Made by a program: the position numbers and the translations under genes. 64,000 nt of DNA, taken from assembly GCF_003352005.1 (NCBI RefSeq), contig NZ_CP024848.1, positions 3,295,001-3,359,000 of the forward strand. The letters run 5' to 3'. The notes under the pieces were generated by a model. It was not told where the DNA came from. It searched no databases and saw only the letters and a program-made list of their open reading frames with translations. Positions 4,230 through 36,446 of this stretch are shown here, one piece after another; position 1 is the first letter of the stretch; every line of letters starts with the position of its first letter. Source of the stretch: Oceanobacillus zhaokaii. GTDB lineage: Bacteria; Bacillota; Bacilli; Bacillales; Amphibacillaceae.

Positions 4230-5423
4230 CTACTTCAAATACTCTTCGGGCCGATTCTCTCTATCCAAGACATAATCAGGGTCGAGTAAATCTGTTAATA
4301 GATGGGGTTGATCAATTAGTGCCATTCCATCGATACGACGACGATCCCCCGTATATACATTATGTACGACCTCTGTATAAGATGTGGGTCCAACGGCAGC
4401 GATCACCTCATACCCTTGCTCGGCGAGATATTGAAATTGTTCCCCGCCATGTTTTACACGGGAGCCAAACGGATAAATGTACAGGGGAGTTGGACCAGTA
4501 ATAATCTCCACTTCTTTTTTCCACTGTTCCGTGTCACGTTTAACACTTTCTAATGAAGCTTTCCCCATATCCATATGAGAGTAAGAGTGACTTGCAAACG
4601 TCCAGCCGGTTTCTTTTAGACGCTCTACTACAGCGATTGCCTTCTTCTTTTCTTTATCATAATCTTTGGAATCGAGATTGTGAGTCGGATATCCAAGAAC
4701 CCCCTCGTATCCAGTTAAGGCAAGGACTCCTTTTGCTCCTTCATGGGAAAAATCAGGATTTTCTTCGACAAAAGTATCTAAGATAGGAATGATTTCATTC
4801 TCGTAAGAAATCACTTCTTCCCCTTTTGGATTAAGGGAATAGGTAGCAACACGACCCTCATCATCCAAAATTAATTTATAAACGTTTCCTTCTTGCCTCA
4901 TGTATTCGTAGTAGTTTACATCATCAACGGAAATGACTACTGGTTTCTTACCCTCAGGAAGTTGAAGTGTTTTCTTCTGAATCTTTCCATCTACTTTTTC
5001 GTAAACATCTCCCAAGTGAACAAGTATAAAATCTCGTTTATACAATTCTTCCAAAGTTCTATTAAACTCGTCAACGGTGATGAACCAATCATTGTATCCT
5101 TGAGCTTGTGGACCCGCAAAAGATAGCTCCGGGTACGCCATAAGCGGGTGGAAAAAGATGTGTTCGACTTCACCCTCATAAGGAAATAGAGTAACGTCAT
5201 CCTCCTTTTCTTCCTTTTCTATAGCCTCTTCTTGAACATTTTCTTCATTATTTTCTTCTACATCTTCGGTTCGACTTTCTAGTTCACTTTCAGGTGAAGC
5301 ATCATCTGCTGCTTCTACTATTTTTGTATTTTCATTCTCTTGTTGATTCACAGTCAGGGATACTTCTTCATCGGAGCAAGCGGATACAAAAAGTAAAATG
5401 AATAGAATAAGATAGCGTTTCAT
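4230..5423 (-). CDS. Polysaccharide deacetylase family lipoprotein
   Basis: A 397-residue exported lipoprotein: hydrophobic signal segment and lipobox VSAC with the lipidated cysteine at residue 16. It is followed by a very acidic Glu/Asp-rich linker (about 17-80) and then a NodB-like carbohydrate esterase 4 domain. The metal-site motifs are visible: the DD of ISVDDVNYYEYM (167-168) and HSYSH (279-283), plus IYPFGSRV (about 316-323), the usual third motif. The family removes acetyl groups from peptidoglycan or exopolysaccharide outside the membrane. The start is supported by GGAGTACG. It is monocistronic, with a hairpin element downstream. The substrate cannot be told. Confidence 0.85.
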   Translation of the reverse strand: MKRYLILFILLFVSACSDEEVSLTVNQQENENTKIVEAADDASPESELESRTEDVEENNEENVQEEAIEKEEKEDDVTLFPYEGEVEHIFFHPLMAYPELSFAGPQAQGYNDWFITVDEFNRTLEELYKRDFILVHLGDVYEKVDGKIQKKTLQLPEGKKPVVISVDDVNYYEYMRQEGNVYKLILDDEGRVATYSLNPKGEEVISYENEIIPILDTFVEENPDFSHEGAKGVLALTGYEGVLGYPTHNLDSKDYDKEKKKAIAVVERLKETGWTFASHSYSHMDMGKASLESVKRDTEQWKKEVEIITGPTPLYIYPFGSRVKHGGEQFQYLAEQGYEVIAAVGPTSYTEVVHNVYTGDRRRIDGMALIDQPHLLTDLLDPDYVLDRENRPEEYLK

Positions 5424-26306: not shown

Positions 26307-26621
26307 TTATGCTGCTGTATTTCTAACAGATTTGTTATCAGGTTGTGATGCATTTACCATTAAGAATATAGCGGAAAGAATATGCATAATCATGCCAACG
26401 ACTGGAATCCAACCAACGCAGGATGTAATGATCCCTAAAATACTACCAACTGACTTACCTTCATCCTTTTTAGTTAATACTAATGTAATAATATGTAAGA
26501 TTAACATTACCAATAGTGGGGTCCAATAAAGAGAAATGATGAATGCTCCACCAATTAATGGTATTGCTAAGAATGCTTCGAACGCTCCAGTTACCCATTT
26601 TAAAATTCTTGATACTGACAA
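26307..26621 (-). CDS. Small membrane protein, unknown function
   Basis: 104 residues with three hydrophobic segments (about 12-30, 31-48 and 60-92). No recognised catalytic motif. Short Bacillaceae membrane proteins of this type occur widely without known function. ATG with AGGAGGTGAAATTA upstream, a very strong ribosome site, and a strong terminator, so it is a real, separately transcribed gene. Confidence 0.7.
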   Translation of the reverse strand: MSVSRILKWVTGAFEAFLAIPLIGGAFIISLYWTPLLVMLILHIITLVLTKKDEGKSVGSILGIITSCVGWIPVVGMIMHILSAIFLMVNASQPDNKSVRNTAA

Positions 26622-26897: not shown

Positions 26898-28700
<1,803 letters not shown>

Positions 28701-28964
28701 ATGACTGCTGCTGTAAATAAGTCATCCTTAGTTTTATACACTGCATTATTGTATTTTATTAATAGAGTTATAAATGTACATCAAGAAATAGCTTCTTCTA
28801 ATAATGTGCAAAAAAACGCAGGCTGGTGGGTTGTTGTATACCTAATTGTTGCTATTGTGGGTATAGCCTTACTAATGTGGGTGTGTCAAACATATGGTAA
28901 TGGTGCCAAATATGGTGGAGATTTTAAATTAGGGCCATTATCACTTTCTGTATATTGTAAGTAA
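28701..28964 (+). CDS. Candidate bacteriocin-like or signalling peptide precursor
   Basis: 87 residues starting at ATG 28701, six bases after a perfect AGGAGGTGA ribosome site. Two hydrophobic stretches: residues 9-24 and a strong membrane-helix-like one at 41-61 (GWWVVVYLIVAIVGIALLMW). The C-terminal 26 residues are polar and glycine-rich with Cys 62 and Cys 86 and a YGNG at 65-68, which could close in a disulfide loop. No family is recognised. A strong hairpin lies six bases after the stop, then genes for an ABC ATPase, permease, M50-like protease and small membrane protein. That order suggests a processed, exported peptide. This is inference from layout. Confidence 0.6.
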   Translation: MTAAVNKSSLVLYTALLYFINRVINVHQEIASSNNVQKNAGWWVVVYLIVAIVGIALLMWVCQTYGNGAKYGGDFKLGPLSLSVYCK

Positions 28965-28969
28965 AAATG

Positions 28970-29006
28970 TTCAGGCTTAGGATTGTCCAGTAATCCTAAG
29001 CCTGAA
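28970..29006 (+). terminator. Perfect 15-bp hairpin after the peptide gene
   Basis: TTCAGGCTTAGGATT-gtccagt-AATCCTAAGCCTGAA, followed by GTAAAATT rather than a T-run. A partial terminator or RNA-stabilising hairpin here would give much more peptide mRNA than transporter mRNA, as is usual in peptide operons. Confidence 0.65.
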
Positions 29007-29084
29007 GTAAAATTCCACTTATGCCTCTCACATTATCTACATAAGACACTATGGTTAGGCTTTTAGGGGGAAGAGAAAAAATAG

Positions 29085-29105
29085 GATGCAGATCTGCCCT
29101 GCATC
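29085..29105 (+). promoter_or_regulatory. Small hairpin before the ABC ATPase gene
   Basis: GATGCAG-atctgcc-CTGCATC, perfect 7-bp stem in the leader of the transporter genes. Confidence 0.4.
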
Positions 29106-29183
29106 TACTATTAAGCTAAGCGAGGTTCTTCAGATGCTGAGAAATTAAAGTAGCATTGTAAACTTGCTTCGAGGAGCGTAAAT

Positions 29184-29951
29184 ATGATCTCTTTATATAT
29201 TAAACATAAAAAATATAATTCTTTTGAACTTGCTGATATTCCAATAAACATAAAGCCTGGTACGATTAATCTCCTTTTAGGTCATAATGGAGCTGGTAAA
29301 ACAACAATTATTAAATCGTTGTTTGGACTTACAGAATTTGAAGGAGATCTTAATTTAAATAACCGTAAAATATCATTTGAGTCTCTAGAGGATGTCGATT
29401 TTTTTAAAAGTCAAATTGCCTACTTACCAGATAATATTTCCCTATTAGATTATTTAACTCCAACAGAATACTTTCAGTTAATAAAATATACTAGCGACAG
29501 CGTAACAAGTGATACTTATTTAAATCATTTGATCCAAATTTTTAATCTTGATAAATATTTAAATGTGCCTATCAGGAATCTCTCACACGGAAATAAAAAG
29601 AAAACCCAGATCGTTTCGCAATTATCGAGAAAAACTAATTTTATGGTTTTTGATGAACCTACGAACGGGTTGGACCCAGATATGATAATTACCTTAAAAA
29701 GAGTATTAGAGAAGTTAAAAGCCCAAGGTGTAGGAGTGTTAATTTCCACACATGACTTAAATTTCGGTAAAGGTATATTTGATAATATCATTATATTAAG
29801 AGACGGATCGATAAAATTAAATAATACGAAAGAAGAAGTGAAAAGTAAATTTGGCAATATTTTGTTAGAGGATTTATATACACAGGTAAATAAAGATTAT
29901 TATAAGTATATTGAGGGGTTGCTAGATGAACTTAATATATCAAGCAGTTAA
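29184..29951 (+). CDS. ABC transporter ATP-binding protein of the peptide locus
   Basis: 255 residues, complete ATPase domain: Walker A GHNGAGKTT (about 33-41), Q-loop region IAYLPDN, signature motif LSHGNKKK (about 133-140), Walker B FMVFDEPTNGLD (about 152-163) and H-loop STHD. The DEPTNGLD form and the leader-less single domain are typical of peptide or bacteriocin exporters and immunity transporters. The permease gene starts inside its last 26 bases, so translation is coupled. Very low GC compared with neighbours. ATG with GAGGAGCGTAAAT upstream. Confidence 0.88.
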   Translation: MISLYIKHKKYNSFELADIPINIKPGTINLLLGHNGAGKTTIIKSLFGLTEFEGDLNLNNRKISFESLEDVDFFKSQIAYLPDNISLLDYLTPTEYFQLIKYTSDSVTSDTYLNHLIQIFNLDKYLNVPIRNLSHGNKKKTQIVSQLSRKTNFMVFDEPTNGLDPDMIITLKRVLEKLKAQGVGVLISTHDLNFGKGIFDNIIILRDGSIKLNNTKEEVKSKFGNILLEDLYTQVNKDYYKYIEGLLDELNISSS

Positions 29952-31320
29952 AAGAGTAGAAATTTCCAGATTTACAGCAAATATAAAAAACCTTTTAATT
30001 AAAAATCTGTCCCACTCTATCTTACTGTCATTAGGCCTATTGGTTATCTATGTGATAAGCGGAGCGCTAACAATCCAGATGATAATAAATATGGAGTTAG
30101 ATTTAAATGAAATTTATATAAATATGGTTAAGGTTAGCATAATATTTAGTACTTTTTTTGTAATAATGTCAAGAAATAGTTTTAAAGCAGATGAATTTGT
30201 GTTTTTCTATTTAAATACAAAAATAAAAGCCCACCAAATTATTTTTAGCAGAATCCTTTTACCTTTCACTTTTTATTTTTTTGTTCTGGTTTTAATAGCG
30301 GTACCGATAATGGTAGGTATACTTGTAAAAGGTTACACTGTTAATCTTTTTTACGTATTATTATTACTTATGTCATTTACAATTAGTTACTTTTTATCAT
30401 TTACTTTATGGATGGTCATTAACATTTTTACAATAAAATTAACGGGTGTGAAAGAAAAGTTTTGGTTAAATACATTAATTAAAATAACGATAATTGCTGG
30501 AATAATTTATTTGATTGATTTTCTTGGAACATTTTTAGTGGGAAGAGATTTACCGCATGTACTTGCAGTTTTATTACTTAGTATTGCGATTACGTATTTT
30601 TTTGTACGATTTTCATTAGAATTTCTCACTAAAACATTTATGCAAAAGGATGCTGGTAACCTTTCACAAAAATATACAAGTAAGAATTTAAATTATAAGA
30701 ATAAGTTTCTGCTTCAAAGTAAATTAGAAACAATCCATTTTTTTCGTGATCAAGTGTTTAAAGAGCAAAGTTTTTTCTTCATCATTTTATTAGTTATTGT
30801 TATTTGTCTCTATTATTATTTAGATTTAGTTAATTTTACGATGATTTATTCAGTGGTAATAAACTTTGGTCTAAAAGAAATCATTTTATTATTGCCCTTA
30901 AGTATTGGTATTCATTTTAGAAAATATAAGGAAGCAATCTATACGTTGAATGTTGGGAAATACCACTATTTCCTTTCAAGAATATTTTTCATTTATATTT
31001 TAAACTGTCTCACATACTTCTTATTTATAACAATTAGTTACTTTCTAACTGGAATGGAGGTATTTGGGATACTTGAAACTTTCATCATTATAGGGTTTGT
31101 AACAATGGTATCAACAATGGTAAGTTTCGTAATTGAAATTACTGAATTAAACAAGATATATATACTCATCTTTCTTCTGCTAGTCGTAAATATTTTTGAC
31201 ATTTTAATAAAACAACTATTCAATAACCAGATACTTGTACAGTTTACTTATATATCTCTCTCAGTAATAATGTTCTTAATCATTGAAACTATTTATTTAA
31301 GGAGACCAATATTGAAATGA
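29926..31320 (+). CDS. ABC transporter permease of the peptide locus
   Basis: 464 residues with about ten to twelve hydrophobic segments and short loops, matching the ABC-2-like permeases found in peptide export or self-immunity systems. No recognisable sequence family beyond this. Start overlaps the ATPase gene; stop overlaps the next start as ATGA, so the four genes are one translationally coupled unit. Confidence 0.75.
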   Translation: MNLIYQAVKRVEISRFTANIKNLLIKNLSHSILLSLGLLVIYVISGALTIQMIINMELDLNEIYINMVKVSIIFSTFFVIMSRNSFKADEFVFFYLNTKIKAHQIIFSRILLPFTFYFFVLVLIAVPIMVGILVKGYTVNLFYVLLLLMSFTISYFLSFTLWMVINIFTIKLTGVKEKFWLNTLIKITIIAGIIYLIDFLGTFLVGRDLPHVLAVLLLSIAITYFFVRFSLEFLTKTFMQKDAGNLSQKYTSKNLNYKNKFLLQSKLETIHFFRDQVFKEQSFFFIILLVIVICLYYYLDLVNFTMIYSVVINFGLKEIILLLPLSIGIHFRKYKEAIYTLNVGKYHYFLSRIFFIYILNCLTYFLFITISYFLTGMEVFGILETFIIIGFVTMVSTMVSFVIEITELNKIYILIFLLLVVNIFDILIKQLFNNQILVQFTYISLSVIMFLIIETIYLRRPILK

Positions 31321-31712
31321 GCTTATTAACGTTTATGGTTATTTTAATTTTAGCTACATTACTTGTTCTTATAGTTCATGAAATAGGTCATATTATTCCT
31401 ATAATACTATTTAATGTCTTAGAAAAAAGACCGTTCTATTATTTCAGTATAGAAATTAATGCAAAGTACTTTTATGTTATTCATGAAAAATTTAATAAAC
31501 ATTATAAAAATTTAATAGTTGCTATCTGTGGTTCTTTATTTCCGATCTTGTTATCCATGATAATGGTTACTATTATTGATAATCAATTTACTAATTTAGT
31601 TACATTATTTTCTTTTGGGAATCTATTAATGCTTCATCCTAAATTACCTGATGGAAGGAACATAATAAATATATTAAAAGAAATGAGGGAGCATAATGGC
31701 AAAAGTATTTAA
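31317..31712 (+). CDS. Minimal M50-type (site-2) membrane metalloprotease
   Basis: 131 residues. The first helix carries HEIGH (H21, E22, H25), the zinc motif of M50 proteases, and near the end lies LHPKLPDG (Asp 112), matching the M50 second motif NxxPxxPxDG that supplies the third zinc ligand. The protein is close to the smallest conceivable M50 core with about four membrane helices. M50-like proteins occur in other peptide export sets, for example YydH of B. subtilis, so it may cut the peptide within the membrane. ATGA overlap with the permease gene; overlaps the next gene by 17 bases. Confidence 0.7.
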   Translation: MSLLTFMVILILATLLVLIVHEIGHIIPIILFNVLEKRPFYYFSIEINAKYFYVIHEKFNKHYKNLIVAICGSLFPILLSMIMVTIIDNQFTNLVTLFSFGNLLMLHPKLPDGRNIINILKEMREHNGKSI

Positions 31713-31986
31713 AGCTATTTCGAGTGGCCTAAGTGTAACATTCTTATACGTAATGGCAGTATTTATTGCACCTATTATTCTAATGTTATTAGGTTTTTCA
31801 AATTTAATAGCAGCCCCAACACTATTTGGGCTCAAATTATACAACATCGAGGTCAAAGATACGGTATTTACTACAGAAGCAACCTTTTTTGGGTGTTTAT
31901 TAGCCTTTATTGTGGGATTAATTATTCATTTTACAATAAAGTTTTTATTGGGATTAAGGAAGACAGTTTCTGAAGGAAGCAATTGA
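31696..31986 (+). CDS. Small membrane protein of the peptide locus, possible immunity protein
   Basis: 96 residues with two long hydrophobic segments (about 10-38 and 60-86) and a charged tail. No family recognised. It is the last gene of the coupled operon; small hydrophobic proteins in this position often give self-protection in bacteriocin loci, but no sequence evidence supports that directly. Ribosome site GAGGGAG just inside the preceding gene. Confidence 0.6.
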   Translation: MAKVFKAISSGLSVTFLYVMAVFIAPIILMLLGFSNLIAAPTLFGLKLYNIEVKDTVFTTEATFFGCLLAFIVGLIIHFTIKFLLGLRKTVSEGSN

Positions 31987-32017
31987 AGCAAGGGGAAGTG
32001 TAAAAATTATTGTGCAA

Positions 32018-32152
32018 ATGACGATTAAGAAGGAAGGCCTTTTCCTGGTAAAAAATAGTCATACAAGAGGTCTTCCCTATACCGATTTACAGCAGAAAAT
32101 CGTGTATGCACTAGAAAACAAGATATTACTGAAGTTTTTCGTAATTATCTAG
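32018..32152 (+). other. Short open frame, 44 codons, unassigned
   Basis: MTIKKEGLFLVKNSH... reads like protein and has higher GC than the operon before it, but there is no good ribosome site and no family match comes to mind. It may be the scrap of a degraded gene. Confidence 0.25.
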
Positions 32153-32299
32153 AGTAAATCAAGTTATTTAACTTTTGACTAATTAGCTAACTGTGTTTCT
32201 AAATATGGGGCTGGCGCATTTTTGATAATAAATTCGCATCCCCTCCTCTTCTTCTTGAGAAGGTTCATCGCATATGTAATAATACTTTTCATAATTAAA

Positions 32300-32369: not shown

Positions 32370-35300
32370 TTATGGCAATAACTTTCTTAATGCATTTTCT
32401 ACATCTTTACTTACTGCTACTTCTCCACCAAAGATGGAAAGACTATCTGCTTTTTGATTCTTTAAATAGTTTGATAGAGCAGTTGGAACTTGGTTATGCA
32501 CCAATAATATTGTACTTTCGTTCTTCGCAGCGAGTACTGCTCCAGTTAATGCATCGGCATAGTTCTTCCCTGTTGCTACATACAAATGCTTGCTTTCTAC
32601 TCCGAAATGCTCAGAGATCGCAATATTTGTGTCATAACGGCTGCGACCACTTAATCGAGTCGTTTTAGGAAGCTGTGCTTCAACTTTTTTCGAAACAGCA
32701 ATTTCTCCACCAACTACTATTGTTTCCTTCGCCCCAAGCTGTTTAATTTTAGCTTTTGTTGCATCTGGCAGTTTATTAGCCTGTGTTAATAGAATTGGCA
32801 TCCCATTCTTCGCTGCGTGTGATGCAACAGATAATGCATCCGGGAAGTCCATTCCATTTGCAACTACTACTTTTCCAGTGCCCTTAGGTGCGACTTCAGC
32901 AGCGATTACTGCAGCTGTATCGTATCTTGAATGTCCGAAAATGCGTCGTACTTTAAGCCCCGACTTTTCCAGTGTATTTGAAACAGCTTTACTCACCGCT
33001 ACTTCTCCACCGAGGATTACAACGTTCTTCGCGCCGAGTCGTTTAATTTCTTTCAATGAATTATCCCAAAGCTTATAACCAGGGGTCATTAGAATTGGTG
33101 CATCTAATTTATGTGCAAGTGGCACCCCTGCTAATGCGTCTGCAAAATTATCCCCACGTGTGATGATAACCGTTTCCACAGATGTCCAACCACGTTGGCT
33201 AATTTCGATTGCAGTATCATATCTGGAATATCCAGATATACGGTCTAATTGCGCTTGAACGACTACTTTAGCTGCAGTACTCACATTTCCAGCCTTATCT
33301 GTAGCTTTTACTGTTATTTCTTGGCCTGCTTTTTGTTTTGCAATTCTCATTTCAAATGTTCCATCTGCTTTAGCAGTCGCAGTCCCAATCTCTTTGCTAG
33401 AAACTTTTGCGGTCAACTGAGAGCCTGATTCTGCTTTCCCAGTTAGTTCCGTTGATTGATCGGTTATAGCGTCAACTACTGGTGCTTCAGGTGCAGTTTT
33501 ATCTGCTACAATTACTTTCGTAGCTGGACTCACATTCCCAACTTTATCTGTCGCTGTTACAGTTATCTCTTGTCCTGCTTTTTGTTTGGCAATTTTCATT
33601 TCAAATGTTCCGTCTGCCTTGGTAGTTGCAGTCCCGATTTCTTTACCGGAAATTTTTGCTGTGACTTGAGAGCCAGACTCTGCTTCACCTGTTACTACCG
33701 TTGATTGATCGGTTACCTCGTCAACTACTGGTGCTTTCGGTGCAGTCCCATCACCAACTACCACTTTCGTCGATTGACTCACATTTCCAGCTTTATCTGT
33801 CGCTGTTACCGTTATTTCTTGGCCTGCTGTTTGTTTCGCGATTTTTATCTCAAATGTTCCATCTGCTTTGGCAGTTGCAGTCCCGATTTCTTTACCGGAA
33901 ATTTTTGCCGTCAGTTGTGAGTTGGATTCTGCTTTTCCCATTAGTACCGTTGATTGATCAGTTACCGCGTCAACAACTGGTGCTACTGGTGCGGTTTTAT
34001 CCACTACAACTAGTTTAGTTGCTTGACTCACATTGCCTGCCTTATCTGTAGCTGTTACGGATATTTCTTGACCTGCTGTTTGCTTGGAAATTTCTATTTC
34101 AAATGTTCCATCTGCTTTGGCAGTCGAAGTTCCGATTTCCTTTCCTGAAACTTTAGCTGACAGATGAGACTCTGCCTCGGCCTGACCTGTTAATGCCACT
34201 GATTGATCGGATACCGCGTCAACCACTGGTCCTTTCGGTGCAGTTTTATCCACTACAACAATAGAAGTTGCATCACTCTCTAAACCACTTGTTCCGATTG
34301 CAACTACACTTAATGTTGTTCCCCCAGCCTGCTTAGGAATGGTAATTTTAAAATTACCATCTTTTTCAGCTTCGCCACTACCTATTTCTTTTCCATCTAA
34401 TCGTACTTTAATGGTTGCCCCTGGATAGGACTCTCCTGTTACTTCACTATCCTGGTCGCTTATTTCATGCACGGTAGGTGCTTGTAAATTTGTAATAGCC
34501 TGGATAGTAGACAAATCACTGATATTACCACTGTTATCAACAGCTGCGATAGATAGACTATAACTTGTATTTTCTTTTAAATCAGTAAACGTGTACTTAT
34601 TTATATTGGAAGCCACTGAATCAACTTTTTCATCATTTTTATATAAACTATAACTTTCTATATCAGTATCGGTGATTTTATCCCAGTTAACTTCAATAGA
34701 ATTCGGACCATTTTCTACAACATTAAAATTGGTTACTTTATCAGGTGCAGTAACATCCTCAATAGTTACATTTTTATCTATAGTATTTCCAAATACATCT
34801 ATTATTTCAAAAGGTATTTTATTGCTTGTAACGTTATTCACTGTTGTACTAAACAAACCTTTATTATTTAAAGAAACTTTCTGACCTTGAACATATACAT
34901 CTAAAAATGGTAATGTTTTTCCTTCGATTTGAACAGAACCTGTTTCATTCGTTAAGTTTTCGCTAAAAATATCAAATGGTATTTCATAGGGCTGATTACT
35001 TACTTTTGTTGAACCTATACTGTTCGAACCACCTAGAAATTGAACGCTACCATGATTTAACGATCCACTATATCCATAACTAACATTTTTTGCATTTAGC
35101 GTTCCATTAATCTTTAGACCTCCATAGCTTTTTAATGCACCGTAAACATAGACATCACCAGTTATTTCTACATTGCCATTAATCGTAATAATGGAATCTG
35201 GTCCAATGTAAACATCTTTGTCGATTACTTTATTCGACCAGTTTTCATTAGCAGTTGTGATGTAGTATGGAGAATCAGGATCATTAATATTTAATTCTGG

Positions 35301-36446
35301 ATTTATAGTAAAGTTTAGATTACTGTGCTCTTTAAAATCAGCTTCATAGTAAAATTTATTATTGCCTGCACGGTCTATTGCATTTATAAAATCAAATGTC
35401 CACTTGCCCACTTCATCTAACGAAGCTATTGTATAATTGCCTTCCCATAATTCGGTTGTTTCATTATACTTTAATTGAATTGAGACTCCTCTATTTTTAC
35501 TTGGAGAATCAAAAAAAACAGTTACATTTTTTACTCCTGAATTTTTATCAGTAACCCTAGTTTTCACAGTAACCCGCTCCCCAGCACCTACTTCATTAGG
35601 ACTTACTTCTACACTCTCCACAACTGGCGCTTTGGAATCACCTGCTTCATTAATTACATTAAAATATAAATTATTGTTATCTGTGAAATCAGTTTCATAA
35701 TAAAATTTATTATTGCCTGCATGGTCTATTGCATTTATAAAGTCAAATGTCCACTTGCCTGCTTCATCTAACGAAGCTATTGTATAATTGCCTTCCCATA
35801 ATTTGGTTGTTTCATTATACTTTAATTGAATTGAAACTCCTCTATTTTTACTAGGAGAATCAAAAAAAACAGTTACATTTTTTACTCCTGAATTTTCATC
35901 AGTAGCCCTAGCCTTCACGGTAACTTGTTCTCCAACACCTACTTCATTAGGACTTACTTCTACACTCTCCACAACTGGTGCTTTGGAATCACCTGCTTCA
36001 TTAATTACATTAAAATATAAATTATTGTTATCTGTGAAATCAGTTTCATAATAAAATTTATTATTGCCTGCATGGTCCATTGCATTTATAAAGTCAAATG
36101 TCCACTTGCCTGCTTCATCTAACGAAGCTATTGTATAATTGCCTTCCCATAATTTGGTTGTTTCATTATACTTTAATTGAATTGAGACTCCTCTATTTTT
36201 ACTTGGAGAATCAAAAAAAACAGTTACATTCTTTACTCCTGAATTTTCATCAGTAACCTTAGCCTTCACGCGAACCTGTTCCCCTACCCCAACTTCATTA
36301 GGACTTATCTCTACACTCTCAACTACAGGTGGTGTCCCATCAGACTCCGCAGTTACCAAAGTAGGAATGAATAGATTCTGTAACAAAATCATTATCATAA
36401 ATATATATGTAAACTTCTTAAAGCTAGTTAAACTTATAAATCTCAT
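32370..36446 (-). CDS. Large repetitive surface protein with Ig-like repeats and CWB2 anchor
   Basis: 1358 residues, secreted. Signal peptide 1-33 (cleavage after LVTA). Three nearly identical 117-residue domains (36-386; VESVEVSPNEVGVGEQV...). A region of short repeated beta turns (about 395-470; VEITGDVYVYGALKSYG, bactofilin-like or polymer-type). A fibronectin III domain (about 580-660). One diverged and four close 83-residue Ig-like domains (about 665-1065; TDKAGNVS hallmark). Three cell wall binding repeat 2 (CWB2) modules (about 1075-1358; SRYDTAI..., FADALAG..., ILGGEVAVSK) that bind wall polymers non-covalently. Likely an adhesin or S-layer-like protein. GAGGGGAAGATT ribosome site. 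Monocistronic. Confidence 0.9.
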   Translation of the reverse strand: MRFISLTSFKKFTYIFMIMILLQNLFIPTLVTAESDGTPPVVESVEISPNEVGVGEQVRVKAKVTDENSGVKNVTVFFDSPSKNRGVSIQLKYNETTKLWEGNYTIASLDEAGKWTFDFINAMDHAGNNKFYYETDFTDNNNLYFNVINEAGDSKAPVVESVEVSPNEVGVGEQVTVKARATDENSGVKNVTVFFDSPSKNRGVSIQLKYNETTKLWEGNYTIASLDEAGKWTFDFINAIDHAGNNKFYYETDFTDNNNLYFNVINEAGDSKAPVVESVEVSPNEVGAGERVTVKTRVTDKNSGVKNVTVFFDSPSKNRGVSIQLKYNETTELWEGNYTIASLDEVGKWTFDFINAIDRAGNNKFYYEADFKEHSNLNFTINPELNINDPDSPYYITTANENWSNKVIDKDVYIGPDSIITINGNVEITGDVYVYGALKSYGGLKINGTLNAKNVSYGYSGSLNHGSVQFLGGSNSIGSTKVSNQPYEIPFDIFSENLTNETGSVQIEGKTLPFLDVYVQGQKVSLNNKGLFSTTVNNVTSNKIPFEIIDVFGNTIDKNVTIEDVTAPDKVTNFNVVENGPNSIEVNWDKITDTDIESYSLYKNDEKVDSVASNINKYTFTDLKENTSYSLSIAAVDNSGNISDLSTIQAITNLQAPTVHEISDQDSEVTGESYPGATIKVRLDGKEIGSGEAEKDGNFKITIPKQAGGTTLSVVAIGTSGLESDATSIVVVDKTAPKGPVVDAVSDQSVALTGQAEAESHLSAKVSGKEIGTSTAKADGTFEIEISKQTAGQEISVTATDKAGNVSQATKLVVVDKTAPVAPVVDAVTDQSTVLMGKAESNSQLTAKISGKEIGTATAKADGTFEIKIAKQTAGQEITVTATDKAGNVSQSTKVVVGDGTAPKAPVVDEVTDQSTVVTGEAESGSQVTAKISGKEIGTATTKADGTFEMKIAKQKAGQEITVTATDKVGNVSPATKVIVADKTAPEAPVVDAITDQSTELTGKAESGSQLTAKVSSKEIGTATAKADGTFEMRIAKQKAGQEITVKATDKAGNVSTAAKVVVQAQLDRISGYSRYDTAIEISQRGWTSVETVIITRGDNFADALAGVPLAHKLDAPILMTPGYKLWDNSLKEIKRLGAKNVVILGGEVAVSKAVSNTLEKSGLKVRRIFGHSRYDTAAVIAAEVAPKGTGKVVVANGMDFPDALSVASHAAKNGMPILLTQANKLPDATKAKIKQLGAKETIVVGGEIAVSKKVEAQLPKTTRLSGRSRYDTNIAISEHFGVESKHLYVATGKNYADALTGAVLAAKNESTILLVHNQVPTALSNYLKNQKADSLSIFGGEVAVSKDVENALRKLLP
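33255..34250 (-). repeat. Tandem 249-bp coding repeats (4 copies)
   Basis: Four close copies of an 83-codon Ig-like unit within the surface protein gene; spacing checked on the repeated TTTTATCC segment (33995 and 34244, exactly 249 apart). Likely to recombine and vary in number. Confidence 0.9.
35289..36341 (-). repeat. Tandem 351-bp coding repeats (3 copies)
   Basis: Three 117-codon units, nearly identical at DNA level (the repeated CCTGCTTCA segments are 351 bases apart), showing recent duplication or gene conversion. Confidence 0.92.

Follow-up and report, generated by a model that had tools for sequence, protein, structure and literature searches.

A five-gene unit in the chromosome of Oceanobacillus zhaokaii is, in our assessment, the biosynthetic cluster of a TMcin-type bacteriocin, a ribosomally synthesized and post-translationally modified peptide (RiPP), with the gene order tmcA-tmcB-tmcC-tmcP-tmcE; we put the probability of this assignment at roughly 0.9. 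The unit occupies positions 28701-31986 on the + strand of the 64,000-nucleotide (nt) stretch that was analysed, hereafter the window, which comes from a single-contig genome of 4.10 Mb. It consists of a peptide gene, a hairpin, and genes for an ATP-binding cassette (ABC) ATPase, a permease, a protein with a HEIGH motif and a two-helix protein of 96 amino acids (aa). The last four genes overlap by 26 nt (ATPase/permease), 4 nt (permease/HEIGH protein) and 17 nt (HEIGH protein/96-aa protein). A preliminary description, made from the sequence alone, had read this layout correctly, both the 87-codon peptide gene with its strong ribosome-binding site (AGGAGGTGA, 5-nt spacer) and the hairpin followed by four overlapping genes. 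It was also right in seeing a small precursor, a dedicated exporter and a minimal membrane metalloprotease with no large modification enzyme. Its view of the operon as unrecognised and as a new system did not hold: the unit matches the TMcin biosynthetic cluster (PMC12328743, PMC13252029), and it belongs to an already described kind of system, being new as a member.

TMcins were described in 2025-2026, in a discovery paper (Nat Commun 2025, PMC12328743) and a bioRxiv preprint (2026, PMC13252029). They are a recent class of antimicrobial peptides for which stable, nanometre-wide pores have been reported. In Staphylococcus aureus G1905, the precursor TmcA is integrated in the membrane; it has a single helix, a leader of 45 residues and two cysteines that are universally conserved. 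TmcB and the 12-helix TmcC secrete TMcin, the leader is taken off by TmcP, a DUF3267 member of the S2P protease clan that carries HExxH and a distal Asp, and the two-helix escort TmcE is required for precursor cleavage (PMC13252029). Mature TMcin-G1905 (UniProt C0HMD4) has a mass of 5.8 kDa and makes large pores modelled as beta-barrels; leader removal, the disulfide, secretion, the escort and pore formation are presented as shown in that strain (PMC12328743, PMC13252029). The discovery paper cites the chromosome NC_006270.3 and names neither Oceanobacillus nor Bacillus pumilus in its main text, although its homologue-tree figure may include close relatives (PMC12328743). By analogy with S. 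aureus G1905, the Oceanobacillus unit would also make and secrete a pore-forming peptide; for this unit the basis is gene content, gene order, motifs, linkage and selection. We take NC_006270.3 to be the chromosome of Bacillus licheniformis.

The precursor shares with TMcin-G1905 its single helix, the tryptophans that flank it and two conserved cysteines. One stretch alone in the peptide exceeds the hydropathy threshold for a transmembrane helix (residues 44-62), and the other of the two hydrophobic stretches claimed previously is an amphipathic leader helix (moment 0.47). The two cysteines that had been placed in the tail both exist, but Cys62 is the end of the helix, while Cys86 is the second residue from the C terminus. 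Among 19 peptides, both cysteines are invariant, one ending the helix and the other near the C terminus, and Trp flanks the helix on both sides in 18, the peptide of locus L025 lacking the second Trp. The Gln at the predicted leader end, shortly upstream of the helix, is likewise present in all 19; most peptides continue with x-N-A, the others with x-N-P, x-N-S or x-H-A, and conservation across distant members is concentrated from this Gln onward. Cleavage after Gln37 would make the first Cys residue 25 of the mature peptide, its position in TMcin-G1905, and would give a 5.46-kDa product (5.8 kDa in G1905) that should retain the transmembrane helix. The calculated mass of this product in oxidised form, beginning with Lys38, is 5464.5 Da (average) or 5460.86 Da (monoisotopic). 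Cleavage plus one disulfide, the processing already proposed in the preliminary description, appears right and is graded as probable.

One copy of the peptide (P0005, on a contig of 4,095,357 bases) is identical to the window peptide over its first 38 residues; its frame is then lost at the A-run that precedes Asn39, and the copy stops after 47 aa, reflecting either a sequencing error or a loss that occurred recently in a sister strain. A frameshift signal at this A-run, an idea that arose from reading the codons, was set aside; distant members carry other residues there. The peptide was also rejected as a class IIa (pediocin-like) bacteriocin, as it has no N-terminal YGNGVxC box after a double-Gly leader. 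Its YGNG string (residues 65-68) lies in the C-terminal loop, without the following Cys of the box, and distant members carry FGGG or FGKG. No class II bacteriocin family was found among the Pfam matches of the five proteins.

The remaining four proteins correspond to the TMcin core of an ATPase, a single-chain permease, a DUF3267/S2P-type protease and a two-helix escort, with no other modification enzyme. The ATPase alone among the five proteins passes a Pfam cut-off, and none of the NCBIfam matches listed for the five (for the ATPase, the best 25 of 191) lies above its cut-off. The catalytic Glu of the ATPase is residue 158, compared with 156 in TmcB. The permease, which belongs to no Pfam family, has about 11-12 helices as judged from hydropathy peaks alone, and a profile comparison found no significant internal duplication within it; profile searches against solved structures gave nothing significant for the peptide or the permease. 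For the HEIGH protein, Pfam ranks DUF3267 ('putative zincin peptidase') first, and the E value of 0.0021 falls within the limits used in the preprint (0.01 for the sequence, 0.03 for the hit; PMC13252029). All 13 protease members matched DUF3267 at E up to 1 (best 3e-5), and each has HExxH and PDG motifs with a His-to-Asp distance of 91, against 90 in TmcP (H68 to D158). The 96-aa protein has no Pfam or NCBIfam match. Minimal DUF3267-type proteases that fall under the Pfam cut-off can in this way be recognised through neighbouring genes.

The unit also differs from that of G1905 in several respects. Its precursor has 87 residues with a predicted leader of 37, compared with 98 and 45, and its protease has no long N-terminal extension, the first His being residue 21 instead of 68. 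The DsbA-like tmcD is missing, as the preprint reports for clusters outside staphylococci (PMC13252029), and by eye there is no adjacent regulatory pair. The unit is chromosomal and begins with the peptide gene, whereas TMcin-G1905 is encoded on the S. aureus plasmid pCT545.

Features of the probable TMcin-type unit of Oceanobacillus zhaokaii, in window coordinates
Feature	Position	Strand	Basis
Block common with Oceanobacillus chungangensis, whole unit inside	28334..32169	+	blastn, 93% over 3840 positions
Ribosome-binding site AGGAGGTGA of peptide gene	28687..28695	+	sequence; 5-nt spacer to ATG at 28701
tmcA-like precursor gene, 87 aa (87 codons, stop ends 28964)	28701..28964	+	exporter-linked at 22/24 loci
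Predicted leader, residues 1-37, last residue the invariant Gln37	28701..28811	+	inferred from Gln in 19/19 and Cys25 fit to TMcin-G1905 (PMC13252029)
Predicted mature peptide, residues 38-87	28812..28961	+	helix 44-62 between Trp42/43 and Trp60; loop Cys62-Cys86
Intergenic hairpin without U-tract	28970..29006	+	hairpin scan, folding
tmcB-like ABC ATPase, 255 aa, Walker B Glu 158	29184..29951	+	PF00005, E 4.1e-21; motifs
tmcC-like permease, 464 aa, many hydrophobic segments	29926..31320	+	no Pfam family; hydropathy; kept at 24/24 loci scanned
tmcP-like S2P/DUF3267-type putative intramembrane protease, 131 aa	31317..31712	+	DUF3267 top Pfam match, E 0.0021, below curated cut-off
HEIGH zinc motif, protease residues 21-25	31377..31391	+	sequence motif
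PDG motif with distal Asp, protease residues 111-113	31647..31655	+	sequence motif
tmcE-like two-helix membrane protein, 96 aa	31696..31986	+	hydropathy peaks 14-32, 67-85; recognised at 24/24 loci

A number of observations weigh against a TMcin identity. The match was drawn feature by feature from published descriptions, not from the protein sequences or folds of G1905. The distance between the two cysteines is 24 in 16 of the 19 peptides, 23 in two and 22 in one, compared with 25 in G1905, and in other members the predicted first Cys falls at mature positions 23-28. The window protease scores 18.8 bits where the Pfam cut-off is 27.1, and profile searches against solved structures were not significant for it, with the site-2 protease aq_1964 at E 0.75. 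Relatives of the permease were found within one order only, whereas TMcins are reported from two phyla; the loci recovered here are therefore probably one branch of the family, or our profiles are too narrow. Lastly, tblastn searches of plasmid records with three permeases and two peptides found nothing.

Epipeptide loci (yydFGHIJ/epeXEPAB) likewise unite a small precursor, a membrane protease and an ABC transporter in one operon that yields a short modified product (PMC7026026). Kinship with them is scarcely credible here. The epipeptide locus, as described, encodes a radical SAM (S-adenosylmethionine) epimerase and gives a 17-residue product without such a helix and loop (PMC7026026); the conserved C-terminal region of the window peptide spans about 50 residues, no radical SAM gene occurs among the five genes or, by eye, among the open reading frames (ORFs) of 24-37 kb, and the YydF-type model is absent from the NCBIfam matches of the peptide. 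A defence system was considered and rejected as well: PADLOC returned ATPase-domain matches for the ATPase (best 25 of 64 families), and a weak match to KwaA for the peptide (E 0.0014); the other three proteins drew no match.

The TMcin-type assignment draws further support from linkage. Profiles of the five proteins were run over 24 loci; left out were five duplicates of the window or of a locus already counted (L001, L002, L004, L007 and L008) and the shorter pieces of L014 and L015 (L009 and L010). All five genes are open and in identical order at 21 of these loci; the other three are L015, where the protease gene is frameshifted and four genes are open, L019, which starts within the permease gene at a contig end, and L018, which is treated below. 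The preliminary description had staked its reading on peptide homologues being linked to ABC/M50-type genes, and the neighbourhood scan found the peptide gene adjoining the exporter genes at all 22 loci with context seen, a count that does not include P0010, P0011, P0012 and P0014-P0018. Eighteen loci (L018-L035) were found by the permease alone, and 16 of them have a peptide gene upstream of the ATPase. For a further peptide, P0003, the gene numbers (peptide ending in 17590, protease in 17605) are consistent with the same order.

Searching 5.8 billion proteins returned, besides the window peptide itself, three close copies of full length and a truncated one. A six-sequence peptide profile found 15 proteins, adding ten from sources that include Pseudogracilibacillus, Virgibacillus, Thalassobacillus and Priestia. 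The permease profile matched 11 of 397 genomes of the order (the wider profile likewise 11), four of 398 in a sample of the class and two of 398 in a sample of the phylum, every match lying within one order. In a first sample of Oceanobacillus the peptide occurred in two of 28 genomes, the window's own counted. Within one genus, which we take to be Bacillus, the permease is present in 15 of 44 genomes and the peptide in the same 15; these are presumably of the pumilus group, to judge by the neighbouring genes in one of them (glycolysis genes to enolase, yvbK-like, opuC-like). The survey adds a well-bounded set of chromosomal clusters in Oceanobacillus and its relatives, including the one that these 15 genomes share. 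Three of nine peptide-profile hits (G058, G072 and G084) were rejected as false, having no exporter-gene matches in the scanned stretches (3.2 kb for G084); G072, which scores E 4.6e-6, is by eye a different membrane protein of 129 aa.

All five genes are under purifying selection in those 15 genomes, with dN/dS lowest for the ATPase and the last gene (0.09 each), followed by the peptide (0.13), the permease (0.17) and the protease (0.20). The divergences of the genes are correlated (Pearson 0.93-0.99, Spearman 0.32-0.94), a result of little weight in which the peptide values include upstream codons. Selection on peptide and exporter would also suit a signalling system, in which a pheromone or sibling signal is cut by the S2P-like protease and exported with no antimicrobial role. 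Precedent exists in the S2P-type cleavage and subsequent ABC export of hydrophobic peptides by Eep/RasP and PptAB/EcsAB, described for the streptococcal Rgg pheromones with Eep and PptAB (PMC7564271). Those genes, however, do not form a dedicated cluster, and the window permease is not detectably related to EcsB: the EcsB family (PF05975) was unmatched by all 13 permeases tested, and a profile comparison gave a probability of 2.6% (score 27.1, against 9.3-19.1 for six other families in the same run). The conserved part of the peptide, a whole helix and a disulfide-sized loop of about 50 residues, is also unlike short pheromones, and the five genes include no recurring receptor or regulator. 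We regard a signalling role as improbable.

The hairpin behind the peptide gene is a recurrent feature of these clusters. In the window, the first 60 nt past the peptide stop fold at z = -7.0 relative to 200 dinucleotide shuffles, and at 20 of 22 loci this segment folds at z <= -2.2, the exceptions being L025 (-0.9) and L030 (-1.1). The window hairpin is terminator-like on the - strand only; with no U-tract on the + strand, an ordinary terminator 3' of the peptide gene was rejected. The sequence of the hairpin varies from genus to genus, which argues for selection on structure and position, and the hairpin likely favours the peptide mRNA over the exporter mRNA. The gap between the peptide and ATPase genes, where a second hairpin lies at 29085-29105 of the window, measures 219 nt in the window, 188 nt in O. 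chungangensis, 233 nt at L025 and 54-79 nt at 19 other folded loci. No convincing promoter was seen by eye upstream of the unit in an alignment of the 15 genomes, a promoter scan of the window stayed at the level of shuffled sequence (29 found, 25.9 expected), and Rfam had zero matches within the window.

This arrangement bears on the idea that the small protein never leaves the producer but stays, as a fixed subunit, in a membrane complex formed with the products of the other four genes. Such a subunit would be expected to show the strict linkage and the slow evolution, leader included, that we observe (pN/pS 0.15 in the leader, 0.18 in the rest). Yet at 20 of 22 loci a hairpin stands between the peptide gene and those of the exporter, conservation among distant members sets in mainly at the Gln, and one locus (L018) has the exporter and the last gene with no detectable peptide gene. 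A permanent subunit is accordingly a very unlikely reading of the small protein.

Under the TMcin-type assignment, the precursor would be anchored in the membrane of the producer through its single helix. TmcP, aided by the escort TmcE, would then cut off the leader, presumably after the invariant Gln37. Because the unit has no tmcD, the disulfide Cys62-Cys86 (mature Cys25-Cys49) would form outside the cell or through an oxidoreductase of the host. TmcBC would extract the mature peptide from the membrane and release it, and the released peptide may form beta-barrel pores in competing Gram-positive bacteria.

Locus L018 (5525-8287 in genome G261) bears on how a producer might protect itself. 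Its ATPase, permease and two-helix genes are open, and the ATPase motifs are intact. The protease gene, in its best alignment, carries two frameshifts and a stop, lacks 13 residues and has another residue in place of the second metal-binding His; no peptide gene turned up in 14 kb, not even at low stringency. Three frame lesions thus fall in about 120 protease codons; at that rate the other three genes, with roughly 810 codons between them, would be expected to have about twenty, and they show none. This suggests that the exporter and two-helix genes were probably kept for something besides production; self-protection is the obvious candidate. The argument concerns one draft genome. At L015 a single frameshift interrupts the protease gene (4488-4848) and the peptide and other genes are open, which shows that decay can also start with the protease alone. 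According to the discovery paper the plasmid confers immunity (PMC12328743), while the preprint states that the self-immunity mechanism was not studied and presumes that the escort prevents self-poisoning (PMC13252029). We tentatively propose, at somewhat less than even odds, that in this branch TmcB, TmcC and TmcE double as self-protection, the escort capturing inserted TMcin and the transporter expelling it, with L018 as a selected immunity-only remnant. If true, this would answer the immunity question left by the preprint (PMC13252029), and an exporter-plus-escort remnant makes that question testable. The last gene had earlier been suggested to give self-protection. It corresponds to the published escort and is not simply an immunity gene, because TmcE is needed for precursor cleavage, though a part in self-protection is possible. 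Possibly new in these data are the Oceanobacillus member, the genus whose exporter and peptide occur in the same 15 of 44 genomes, the testable cleavage motif with an invariant Gln before the helix, the recurrent hairpin after the peptide gene and the L018 remnant.

Horizontal gain of the unit had been suggested from its low GC content. The GC of the cassette is indeed lower than that of the rest of the window (28.5% versus 36.8%), but the argument is weak and was rejected as proof of transfer, since the five genes, with third-position GC of 0.19-0.26, still overlap with the lowest of the window ORFs (n = 43 of at least 150 aa, ATPase and permease among them; median 0.302). Discordant divergence gives better support, and gain by transfer is graded as probable. 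In the housekeeping permease EcsB, the window genome shares 47% and 46% identity with two Gracilibacillus genomes, whereas the cassette reaches 63% for the permease and 79-80% for the ATPase; towards the Virgibacillus genome G177 the order is reversed (EcsB 68%, cassette permease 31%). The flanks also differ between Oceanobacillus and Gracilibacillus, the sole common DNA lying inside the unit. Taken together, these identities and flanks suggest that the unit probably travelled between lineages; an old duplication with losses is a possible alternative. An empty-site comparison in sister genomes gave scattered matches only. Carriage by a phage or plasmid was rejected: the peptide was not found in viral contigs, the permease was not found in phage records, the plasmid searches were empty, and PHROGs gave only weak, function-less families.

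The surroundings of the unit show further changes. Directly upstream, on the - strand, two adjacent ORFs of 294 and 81 aa (26937-28096) are by eye pieces of one broken beta-glucosidase gene. Downstream, also on the - strand, lies the gene for a secreted repeat protein of 1358 aa (32370-36446), by eye with C-terminal cell-wall-binding repeats. Pieces of this surface-protein gene match O. chungangensis DNA on both sides of the unit, indicating that the region has been rearranged. Farther upstream, a - strand gene (26307-26621) encodes a 104-aa membrane protein with a weak Pfam match to MpPF26 (E 0.00037, below the cut-off).

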